Shown here piece by piece: positions 58,901 to 62,973 of a stretch of DNA of 64,000 bases. Position numbers and translations under genes: made by a program. How positions within the stretch are numbered: position 1 is the stretch's first letter; every line of letters begins with the position of its first letter. The notes beneath the pieces were generated by a model. The model saw only the letters and a program-made list of their open reading frames with translations. It made no database searches and was not told where the DNA came from. Source of the stretch: Acetatifactor muris (GTDB taxonomy: Bacteria; Bacillota; Clostridia; Lachnospirales; Lachnospiraceae); contig JAMPHD010000002.1 of the NCBI GenBank assembly GCA_023663635.1, forward strand, positions 62,001 to 126,000, given 5' to 3'.

Positions 58901-59092
58901 TTACAATGCCTCAATGGCTGTCATCAGCTCATCCACGTCGATACCGTGAACCATGGCCGCTTCCTCCAGGGACTCTCCCTGTGCGGAGGGGCATCCCAGA
59001 CAATGCATGCCCGCGTCCATCAGCACGGGCGCCACGTCAGGATTGGCGCGAAGAATCTCACCTATTGTCATTTCTCTTGTAATTCCGGTCAT
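58901..59092 (-). CDS. DUF1858 small redox-type protein
   Basis: A 63-residue protein fully made of a DUF1858 domain (hybrid-cluster-associated disulfide domain). The signature [30 protein letters not shown] has a CxxC pair at residues 31 and 34. Such proteins occur in anaerobes and may sense redox state or hold a metal. It is divergent from the pfl promoter region, with its own promoter. Confidence 0.88.
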
Positions 59093-59171: not shown

Positions 59172-59278
59172 TGTACTTTTCCGTGATTTTTGTATGCAAA
59201 AAAGTACACTATCCACCTTGACTCTCCCGCTTGTTTTTTTTATAATAATAAGCAGGATTAAGAGTAACGCAAGTTACT
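59172..59278 (+). promoter_or_regulatory. pfl promoter with two inverted repeats
   Basis: TTGACT (59218-59223) and TATAAT (59241-59246) are 17 bases apart, a near-ideal promoter. Upstream, TGTACTTTT (59172-59180) mirrors AAAAGTACA (59200-59208). In the leader, AGTAAC-GCAA-GTTACT (59263-59278) forms a short palindrome. Both are candidates for control by redox or growth-state factors; neither matches Rex or CcpA consensus well. Confidence 0.8.
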
Positions 59279-59317: not shown

Positions 59318-61357
59318 ATGAGACCAGAATGGACAGATTTTGTAGCCGGCAAATGGGATAAGGAAGTGAATGTTCGCGACTTTATCCAGAGGAACTATCA
59401 CCCCTATGACGGTGATGAGAGTTTCCTTGCGGGAGCTACACAGAACACGAAAGACTTGTGGGCACAGGTGCTTGACCTGCAGAAACAGGAGAGAGAAGCA
59501 GGCGGTGTTCTTGACATGGACACCAAGGTTGTTTCCACCATTACCTCTCACGGCCCCGGCTACCTCGACAAGTCCAAGGAGACGATCGTAGGTTTCCAGA
59601 CCGACAAGCCTTTCAAGAGATCCCTGCAGCCTTACGGCGGTATCCGTATGGCAGAGAAGGCTTGCTCAGACAACGGTTATGAGGTTGATCCCGAGATTTC
59701 CGAGTTCTTCTCCACCCACAGAAAGACCCACAACGCAGGTTGTTTCGATGCTTACAATCAGGAGATGAGAGCATGCCGTTCCTCCCACATCATCACCGGT
59801 CTTCCCGATGCGTATGGCCGCGGCCGTATCATTGGCGACTACAGACGTGTGGCTCTGTACGGTATCGACAGACTGATCGAGGACAAACAGGCTCAGAAGG
59901 ATTCCACCGGCCGCGTGATGACCGATGACGTGATCCGTCTTCGTGAGGAAATCTCCGAGCAGATGATCGCTCTGAAGATGATGAAAGAGATGGCTGCATC
60001 CTACGGCTGCGATATCTCCAAACCCGCTTCCAATGTGCAGGAGGCTATTCAGTGGACCTACTTCGGTTATCTGTGTGCCGTAAAGGAGCAGAACGGCGCT
60101 GCCATGTCCCTTGGACGTACCTCTACCTTCCTTGACTGCTACGCTGAGAGAGATCTGAAGAACGGTACCTTCACCGAGGAGCAGATTCAGGAGTTCGTTG
60201 ACCACTTCATCATGAAACTGCGTCTTATCAAGTTTGCCCGTACTCCCGAGTACAACCAGATTTTCGCAGGCGATCCCGTATGGGTTACTGAGTCCTTGGG
60301 CGGCGTTGGCGTAGACGGCAGACCTATGGTTACCAAGATGAGTTTCCGTTACCTGAACACTCTGACCAACCTTGGACCTTCTCCCGAGCCCAACCTGACT
60401 GTACTTTGGTCCACCAGACTTCCTGAATCTTGGAAGAAATACTGCGCGAAGATGTCCATCCAGACCTCTTCCATCCAGTATGAGAACGATGATCTGATGA
60501 GAGTTACCCATGGCGATGACTACGGTATCGCATGCTGCGTATCCTCCATGGTGATCGGTAAAGAGATGCAGTTCTTCGGCGCCCGCGCAAACGTTGCAAA
60601 ATGTCTGCTGTACGCTTTGAACGGCGGTGTGGACGAAGTGACCAAGAAACAGGTTGGTCCTAAGTATCGTCCCGTTACCGGAGATGTATTGGACTATGAT
60701 GATGTAATGAGCAAGTTCATCGACATGTTGGAGTGGCAGGCAGATGTGTATGTAAACACCTTGAACATCATCCACTACATGCATGACAAATACTGCTATG
60801 AGAGAGCAGAGATGGCTCTCCATGACAGAGACGTAAAGCGCTACTTCGCAACCGGCGTTGCAGGTCTGTCCATCGTGGCTGATTCCCTGTCCGCCATCAA
60901 GTACGCAAAGGTTGAGCCCATCCGTGATGAGGACGGCATCATCGTTGACTTCAAGACCACCGGTGATTTCCCCAAATACGGTAATGATGATGATCGCGTG
61001 GACAGCATCGCACAGGAGATCGTGCATAAGTTCATGACCGCCATCAGAAGACATCACACCTACAGAAACGGTGTGCCTACCACTTCCATCCTGACCATTA
61101 CCTCCAACGTAACCTATGGTAAGGCTACCGGTAATACTCCCGATGGACGTAAGAAAGGCCAGCCTTTCGCTCCTGGCGCTAACCCTATGCACGGCCGCGA
61201 TACCCATGGCGCTGTAGCATCCCTGTCTTCCGTATCCAAGCTGCCCTTCAATGATGCACAGGACGGTATCTCCAATACCTTCACCATCATTCCCGGCGCT
61301 CTGGGCAAAGAGGATCAGGTCTTCGCAGGTGATATCGAACTTGATCTGAACAAATAA
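59318..61357 (+). CDS. Pyruvate formate-lyase catalytic subunit lacking its radical domain
   Basis: A 679-residue glycyl radical enzyme core that would split pyruvate plus CoA into formate and acetyl-CoA. The active-site cysteine pair is C406-C407 in [12 protein letters not shown]. Sequence follows PFL from the start (WTDFVAGKW) to [17 protein letters not shown], the point where ordinary PFL (about 740-760 residues) continues into NLV...RVSGYAVNF. Instead it ends after a short tail, [11 protein letters not shown]. No matching sequence follows in any frame until the separate radical-domain gene. Codon use differs from neighbours (GGT, CGT, GTT frequent), as in highly expressed genes. GAGGAGG precedes the ATG. 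Confidence 0.95.
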
Positions 61358-61412
61358 CTTGTAGGGATCACGATATCACCGTGTGATACTTGAGCTTGAT
61401 CTGAATAAGTAG
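61331..61412 (+). repeat. Degenerate duplicate of the pfl 3' end
   Basis: The last codons and stop at 61331-61357 (GATATCGAACTTGATCTGAA...) recur as 61385-61412 (GATACTTGAGCTTGATCTGA...). Both copies encode ELDLNK then stop in their own frame, separated by 27 bases. Confidence 0.8.
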
Positions 61413-61442: not shown

Positions 61443-61646
61443 ATGGACGAGAAACAGATGATCGACGATCTGGTCAAAATGTTGGATTCCGGCATGGCAG
61501 AAGGCGTGGGACATGTGAATGTGGACACCGCCGCTGAGGAAGAGACATCAAAGAACGTTCAGACAATGGGCTGCACGGATTGTTCCAGAACTCCGTTGGC
61601 CTGCAGTGTACCGACACTTCACGAGGGATTGGACGATTACAAATAA
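61443..61646 (+). CDS. 67-residue Cys-rich protein related to the start of the PFL radical domain
   Basis: Residues 5-28 align with the same numbered residues of the adjacent radical-domain protein without gaps; D8, L10, V11, L14, D15, G21, H24, N26 and V27 are identical. The second half is unrelated and carries C44, C47 and C54 (GCTDCSRTPLACSVP). It has no glycyl motif. AAGGAGG lies just before the ATG, a strong start. Likely an assembly, docking or metal-linked accessory of the split PFL; the role is unknown. Confidence 0.85.
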   Translation: MDEKQMIDDLVKMLDSGMAEGVGHVNVDTAAEEETSKNVQTMGCTDCSRTPLACSVPTLHEGLDDYK

Positions 61647-61721: not shown

Positions 61722-61961
61722 ATGGCAAATTCTGCACAGGTTGATAATCTTGTAAACTTACTGGATGGCTATGCTACCAAGGGCGGTCATCATCTGAACG
61801 TAAACGTGCTCAACAGAGAGACCCTGTTGGATGCTCAGAAACATCCCGAGAACTATCCTCAGCTGACCATTCGCGTGTCCGGGTATGCAGTGAACTTCAT
61901 CAAGCTGACTCCCGAGCAGCAGGCTGACGTTATTTCCCGTACTTTCCATGAGGCTATCTGA
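61722..61961 (+). CDS. Stand-alone glycyl radical domain of pyruvate formate-lyase
   Basis: A 79-residue protein equal to the C-terminal domain of [43 protein letters not shown], then RVSGYAVNF with the radical glycine at residue 54 and the ending ISRTFHEAI. It is smaller than GrcA/YfiD (about 127 residues) because it lacks the extra N-terminal part. GAGGAGG precedes the ATG. With the truncated catalytic subunit it would form a complete enzyme after activation by PflA. A strong terminator follows, marking the operon end. Confidence 0.95.
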
Positions 61962-61977: not shown

Positions 61978-62009
61978 GAGGGTGCCCTTAGCGGGCGCCC
62001 TCTTTTTTG
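61978..62009 (+). terminator. Rho-independent terminator of the pfl operon
   Basis: GAGGGTGCCC (61978-61987), loop TTAGC, GGGCGCCCTC (61993-62002), then TTTTTT. A strong canonical hairpin. Confidence 0.95.
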
Positions 62010-62100
62010 TGAGCTGATACCTCGCTGCGAACATGGCCGTTTTCTCATCATTCACGGGAATAAAGGCAACAAAATTGGAAACACTACGGGAAATCCGGCT

Positions 62101-62128
62101 TTTCATTTGTTTTGCCTTCTGCTATAAT
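62101..62128 (+). promoter_or_regulatory. pflA promoter
   Basis: TTTCAT (62101-62106) and TATAAT (62123-62128) are 16 bases apart, about 80 bases before the pflA start. It lies after the pfl terminator, so pflA can be expressed on its own. Confidence 0.6.
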
Positions 62129-62211: not shown

Positions 62212-62973
62212 ATGCAGGGAAGAATACATTCACTTGAGAGTTTTGGCACGGTAGACGGCCCCGGAACCCGATTTGTGGTCTTTGTGCAGGGCTGTCCCAT
62301 GCGCTGTGCCTACTGCCACAACCCCGATACCTGGGAGATGAACGGCGGTACTCTCATGGAGCCCGCCTATATTATAGAACAATATGAGCGCAACCGAGCC
62401 TTTTATCAGAATGGCGGCGGTCTCACCGTCACGGGCGGCGAACCCCTCATGCAGGTAGATTTCCTGATCGACCTCTTTACTCTGGCCAAAGAACATGGAA
62501 TCCACACCTGCATTGACAGCTCCGGCATCGCCTACAATCCGGACAATACCGCATGGCTGAAGAAATTGGATCACCTCATGACCCTTACCGATCTGGTCAT
62601 GTTGGACATTAAGCATATCGACCCCGAGAAACACAAAGATTTGGTCAAACAGCCCAATACCAACATCCTCAAATTTGCGGCATACCTGGACGAGAAAAAA
62701 GTCGATATGTGGATTCGTCATGTCATCGTCCCCGGCTATACCGATGATGACAAATACCTGTTTGAACTGGGATACTTTATCGGTCAGTTCTCCAATCTCA
62801 AAGCCTTGGACGCGCTGCCCTACCATACCATGGGTGAGTCCAAATATGAGAAACTGGGCATGGAATACCGCCTGAAAGGCGTTCCCGCCATGGACAAAAA
62901 TAAACTGATCGAGAAAAAAGAAGTGATCTTGGACGGGATCCGCAAGCGCCGGGCAGAGATGGATGCGAAATAG
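62212..62973 (+). CDS. pflA: Pyruvate formate-lyase activating enzyme
   Basis: A 253-residue radical SAM enzyme that places the radical on the PFL glycine. The iron-sulfur motif is C28-x3-C32-x2-C35 (GCPMRCAYCHNPDTW), GGEP at 75-78 binds SAM, and the start GRIHSLESFGTVDGPGTR matches PFL activases. Only a single cluster motif is present, as expected. Its substrate here should be the small radical-domain protein, free or bound to the catalytic subunit. AGAGG lies upstream of the ATG. Confidence 0.96.
   Translation: MQGRIHSLESFGTVDGPGTRFVVFVQGCPMRCAYCHNPDTWEMNGGTLMEPAYIIEQYERNRAFYQNGGGLTVTGGEPLMQVDFLIDLFTLAKEHGIHTCIDSSGIAYNPDNTAWLKKLDHLMTLTDLVMLDIKHIDPEKHKDLVKQPNTNILKFAAYLDEKKVDMWIRHVIVPGYTDDDKYLFELGYFIGQFSNLKALDALPYHTMGESKYEKLGMEYRLKGVPAMDKNKLIEKKEVILDGIRKRRAEMDAK

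Follow-up and report, generated by a model that had tools for sequence, protein, structure and literature searches.

X, a 67-aa protein encoded between the two parts of a split PFL in Acetatifactor muris, appears on balance to be a third component of the enzyme, a detachable thiol tail that would supply the active site of PFL with a pair of cysteines. This reading is based on operon structure, N-terminal homology, cysteine conservation and the mutually exclusive occurrence of the cysteine pair in cis and in trans, all of which are read from sequence; the docking site of X, its thiol chemistry and a link to oxygen recovery are what we infer from them. In the fermentation of gut anaerobes PFL is a central enzyme, which oxygen destroys at its glycyl radical. 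Since the radical domain is a separate protein in 114 of 299 Lachnospiraceae genomes, exchange of a 79-aa part could repair such damage, and since the cysteine pair is found in cis or in trans and not in both, splitting the enzyme seems to create a need at the active site. The wider reading, that a thiol module at the active site, absent from ordinary PFLs, is a requirement of split ones, is offered tentatively. The system amounts to a naturally modular PFL, in which the protection and reloading of a radical enzyme in anaerobes are open to clear and cheap tests.

The P-X-G operon and the two halves of X

The stretch of DNA analysed (64,000 nt, hereafter the window) carries on its plus strand, in this order, a promoter-like site, the PFL catalytic subunit without a radical domain (P), X, GrcA3 (G), a terminator, a second promoter-like site and pflA; judged from the window sequence, P-X-G form one promoter-to-terminator unit. 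The upstream site is a sigma-70-like promoter (TTGACT-17-TATAAT, 59218..59246, 11 of 12 consensus matches), assigned by consensus only. P (59318..61357, 679 aa) matches TIGR01255 with 1102 bits and only over model positions 2-665 of 744, from which it follows that the radical domain is missing; the protein stops before this domain, and its 15-aa C-terminal tail contains no cysteine. X (61443..61646) is recognised as an open reading frame with AAGGAGG upstream and by its conservation in relatives, among which Acetatifactor and other Lachnospiraceae are close. G (61722..61961, 79 aa, with the RVSGYAV motif) is the radical domain missing from P as a separate protein, the autonomous glycyl-radical subunit GrcA3 (NF038360, 162 bits against a cut-off of 158). 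The unit is closed by a strong intrinsic terminator (61978..62002; a 10-bp stem with eight G-C pairs, and T6), and a promoter-like site (62100..62128, 10 of 12 matches, with TG) lies 5' of pflA (62212..62973), which encodes the PFL-activating radical SAM enzyme (TIGR02493, 294 bits). No Rfam element was found in the P-X-G operon, and a family search found P as the sole PFL catalytic gene of the source genome. The codons of the P C-terminus (ELDLNK-stop) recur 55 bases downstream in the gap between P and X (61337-61411; 85% identical, 20 nt), and similar remnants are seen at locus L252.

X consists of a GrcA-like N-terminal part and a tail of its own. The initial annotation had described it as a partial mimic of the radical domain, with nine identities in 24 residues; the likeness holds, with a gap-free register and ten identities, including the start methionine, over residues 1-28. 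The best ungapped BLOSUM62 score between X and GrcA3 is 52, shuffled sequences score 20.9 +/- 3.7, and none of 5000 shuffles scored as high. Profile-profile comparison with hhalign gives a probability of 96.7% and an E-value of 4e-10 over 34 columns, which take in the N-terminal helix and the GGHHLNVNV strand of GrcA. The putative docking segment thus delimited (residues 6-28, 61458..61526, plus strand) is composed of the helix MIDDLVKMLDSGM and a beta10-like GVGHVNVD. The NCBIfam GrcA3 model matches X weakly (NF038360, E 0.005, residues 4-32; 16.9 bits, far below the cut-off of 158), and with this as its only NCBIfam match and none in Pfam, X falls into no family. The two proteins differ after about residue 32, where X continues into the cysteine tail GCTDCSRTPLACSVPTLHEGLDD (residues 43-65, 61569..61637, plus strand), delimited by conservation and by its match to P C-termini; the codons for C44, C47 and C54 lie at 61572, 61581 and 61602 of the same strand. 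That the tail lacks a glycine loop, as annotated at the outset, agrees with the lack of RVSGYAV in the window protein and in the X alignment. The X profile has no significant relative in the PDB. AlphaFold2 predicts only helix 3-19 for X alone (pLDDT 56), and a P-X-G read-through chain from locus L222 (47 rows) reaches a pLDDT of 44, values too low for either model to be of use. Selenocysteine insertion or stop read-through was checked for, and the in-frame TGA (L030, L284) and TAA (L042) codons fall after the cysteine tail and not at a cysteine position; at L075 and L076 the X reading frame ends just after CxxC.

Occurrence of X and of the cysteine pair in cis and in trans

Among the 299 genomes, sampled as a rule at one per genus, X occurs in 77, and 76 of these also encode a standalone GrcA3 (Fisher p about 1e-40, with relatedness ignored); the single exception is a 67%-complete genome in which X lies near a contig end. 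X adjoins GrcA3 in the order P-X-G in 73 of the 77. A scan of GTDB genomes, with 11 closer X rows as the query, returned 444 places, and P-X-G was found at 75 of the 80 loci that were read, the remaining five showing X-G-A with little sequence upstream. X also extends to other families of the order and to two further families of the class. The conservation inside the operon that the initial annotation had named as an argument for function is thus present, and X keeps the company expected of a split-PFL subunit, namely a truncated PFL and a standalone radical domain. Across 47 diverse rows, D15, G23, H24, N26, C47, A53, C54, P57 and T58 are invariant or nearly so. C47 and C54 are each conserved in 75 of the 77 X proteins of the family; position 44 is a cysteine in 55 and a serine in 20. 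Not every GrcA3 copy in X genomes adjoins X: the source genome has an unlinked second copy (G000:C11:512125-512355, L108), and there are 23 further places of this kind. Of 20 such places that were read, 17 lack a PFL catalytic gene in the sequence inspected, which is what a spare part would lead one to expect.

The absence of X from other split-PFL operons had been put forward as evidence against a function. No X-gene match was found in 38 of the 114 GrcA3 genomes (G130, among these, has a divergent X at another site), but in nearly all X-less split PFLs P itself bears a short two-cysteine C-terminal tail, often with the C-x(2-6)-C-x-[IV]-P-[NT] core of X, which strengthens the case for function. 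The X profile matches P C-termini in some X-less genomes unprompted (e.g. G092, E 2.7e-5), and P tails such as RLEAECGNMACNIPNIEESIDRE, CEAGSCAIPNLEEGLDRE and CPDEACRIPNLMEGLDREF are close to X tails such as DCAAGNLACSVPTLFEGMD; ECGNMACNIPNIEESIDRE is likewise the cis tail of a relative. P proteins encoded beside X end in a short tail, for example of 12 aa, without cysteine. The C-terminal cysteine pair is accordingly found in trans, on X, and in relatives in cis, on P.

The two arrangements exclude each other. Among 125 split-type P rows, in which two genomes are entered twice, 88 combine X with a tail-less P and 36 a tailed P with no X; one has neither and none has both. The rule used here for a cis tail, two or more cysteines after ALGK, is loose; a strict core, C-x(2-6)-C-x-[IV]-P-[NTI], is found in 16 of 35 cis tails, in none of the 88 tails of X-type P proteins and at most once in shuffled sets. 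One clade of about ten cis tails has a different two-cysteine pattern, EPDCACCEPN, and some of the cis tails could therefore have arisen as a separate invention. The exclusion extends to genomes in which X lies far from the PFL operon (G002, G297, G282 and G130), where P is still without a cysteine pair, and to the class-level X loci L284-L286, where P has no cysteine tail in all three. G288 (L106, L272) is the only split PFL for which neither X nor a cysteine tail was detected; its X may be too diverged or lie in a gap.

On a maximum-likelihood tree of P, obtained by a quick search with SH-aLRT support only, the X state requires 16 changes and the cis tail 12, of which at least six each are forced by starred branches. 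Where independent pairs differ in X, the cis tail always goes the opposite way; only five such pairs lie on starred branches, and a sign test on these cannot therefore reach 0.05. As far as the P tree and tail sequences tell, the two states are switched repeatedly and exclusively. Genome G096 (L258, L317; G096:C26) encodes P and the radical domain as a single chain, nested among split PFLs (support 94), with the cysteine motif TCGCEEVTCAVD in the linker, whereas the other unsplit PFLs that were read have a short cysteine-free linker; its PFL is apparently a re-fused split enzyme. The C-terminus of the G096 protein reads RTFHCCM.

A gene of the DUF1858/TIGR03980 'redox disulfide' type (58901..59092, minus strand; TIGR03980, E 3e-29) is divergent from the PFL operon of the window. 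Of 37 X genera, 18 have such a gene no more than 1 kb upstream of P; the corresponding counts are 3 of 20 for cis-tail genera and 1 of 12 for unsplit loci (G096). From this association, its product is a possible thiol partner; the neighbourhood fits a thiol tail but may reflect inherited gene order.

A proposed thiol tail and its alternatives

The first 28 or so residues of X reproduce the helix and tenth strand by which the radical domain (GrcA3, YfiD) would plug into the barrel, and X would dock at the place of the radical domain on the catalytic barrel or beside GrcA3. The C-x(6)-C-x-V-P-T-L tail would then deliver its cysteine pair to the active site, whose adjacent catalytic cysteines (C406/C407 in the locus L222 protein, corresponding to C418/C419 in E. 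coli) should lie open because P itself contains no radical domain. Placed there, the pair could hold the catalytic cysteines in a reduced or covered state whenever the radical subunit is missing, oxygen-damaged or under exchange, in a manner reminiscent of the C-terminal cysteines that serve the active sites of ribonucleotide reductases (RNRs); in lineages without X, the pair on the C-terminus of P would take this part. What is common to all these systems, to judge from their sequences, is the cysteine tail and not the mimic. The GrcA-like segment is present only where the cysteine pair resides on a separate protein and is for this reason read as an anchor; an anchor of this kind should dock at the radical-domain site and place the pair near the open active site. 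The earlier proposal that X uses the GrcA docking surface is, on the basis of the shared segment, probably right. PFL turnover does not oxidise the enzyme's cysteines. As its cycle consumes no thiols, the function is placed in the protection or re-reduction of the catalytic cysteines, and an RNR-like shuttle would serve repair rather than the cycle.

Published work on the E. coli system bears on this docking and underlies the strongest rival explanation. In YfiD, the y-beta1 strand is the proposed substitute for beta10 in the PFL barrel, and residues 696-733 of PFL serve YfiD as a recognition element (PMC8683613). X could be mainly a placeholder or loader that fills the beta10 place, keeps the barrel folded and recruits GrcA3, much as YfiD is recruited in E. 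coli by the 696-733 stump left after oxygen cleavage of PFL; its cysteines would only lock it in position or sense oxygen. The weight of this explanation comes from the observation that truncation of E. coli PFL before residue 696 makes YfiD binding too weak to measure and lowers activation about 32-fold (PMC8683613); P is naturally truncated close to the equivalent place, and X supplies a helix and a beta10-like strand. The stump would resemble X in filling the radical-domain place of the barrel and in affecting spare-part binding (PMC8683613), but it is a damage product in cis and has no cysteine tail. X-less systems, however, replace only the cysteine tail and not the strand, which makes the cysteines appear to be the shared need, and we regard the placeholder reading as unlikely.

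The cysteines themselves invite other readings. A CxxC...C pattern is present in 55 of 77 X proteins and class II RNR has cysteine-rich zinc tails (PMC5704485), so the tail, perhaps with H24 or residues of P, might bind zinc or iron and either clamp the split interface or sense metals. The first cysteine is nevertheless a serine in 20 of 77, cis tails keep only a pair with variable spacing, and no metal-domain match was obtained for X in Pfam or NCBIfam; with only two cysteines constant, a metal site is a weaker rival and improbable, and iron delivery by X, a role that had been suggested earlier, is rejected on the same grounds. Sharing its docking segment with GrcA3, X could also compete with it, and a quencher might displace GrcA3 or donate a hydrogen atom from a cysteine, a plausible donor, and so extinguish the glycyl radical ahead of exposure to oxygen. 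We consider this quite improbable: the placement of X in one short transcription unit with P and G, and the fact that only a cis tail takes its place, are more in keeping with a constitutive part than with an inhibitor that acts conditionally. That only the N-terminal part is common to X and GrcA3 would also be expected of a decaying, functionless partial duplicate of grcA3, a reading effectively ruled out by the retention of X over dozens of genera under strong constraint on its own tail.

Known systems and related small proteins

If X is indeed a thiol tail, its best parallel, by analogy, is NrdJb of the split class II RNR of Pseudomonas aeruginosa, a small trans subunit with C-terminal cysteines for a barrel radical enzyme, whose relatives carry these cysteines in cis as X-less PFLs do. 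NrdJb serves mainly to supply the active site in trans with C-terminal cysteines (PMC4520616). The likeness would be one of working, with no sign of homology in that X matches no RNR family in Pfam or NCBIfam, and RNR, unlike PFL, forms an active-site disulfide at each turnover. X is related by descent to the spare part GrcA/YfiD and to GrcA3 (NF038360), which are likewise small PFL partners with a homologous N-terminal helix and beta10-like strand, but it lacks the RVSGYAV loop and the C-terminal helix, has a cysteine tail instead, and adjoins GrcA3 as a separate gene. BssB and BssC of benzylsuccinate synthase are small cysteine-containing accessory subunits of a glycyl radical enzyme as well, and BssB promotes thiyl radical formation (PMC12590467). 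Both, however, hold [4Fe-4S] clusters in HiPIP-like folds; X has no detected similarity to them, and its two strictly conserved cysteines, with a third in 55 of 77, do not provide four cluster ligands. A literature search, with subscription papers and most preprints outside its reach, returned no description of X, the cis tail or GrcA3. GrcA3 is already a named NCBIfam family; what would be new is the detachable thiol tail of a split glycyl radical enzyme.

Two further types of small protein resemble X at the N-terminus. One has a GrcA-like N-terminus as in X and a different tail, YHHGRCDVGSPWAKG; it is encoded in the source genome outside the window (G000:C24:21138-21323, minus strand), is matched strongly in 38 of 299 genomes, all but one of which also have X, and is also seen at loci L171, L172, L175-L177 and L273-L282, with no adjoining PFL in the loci inspected. 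It is perhaps another PFL-docking protein. The other, at L173 and L174 (G060:C117 and G501:C3), combines a similar N-terminal helix with the tail SHxCCNxYGRPAxETVGLLDMYTDxNxGxPDR.
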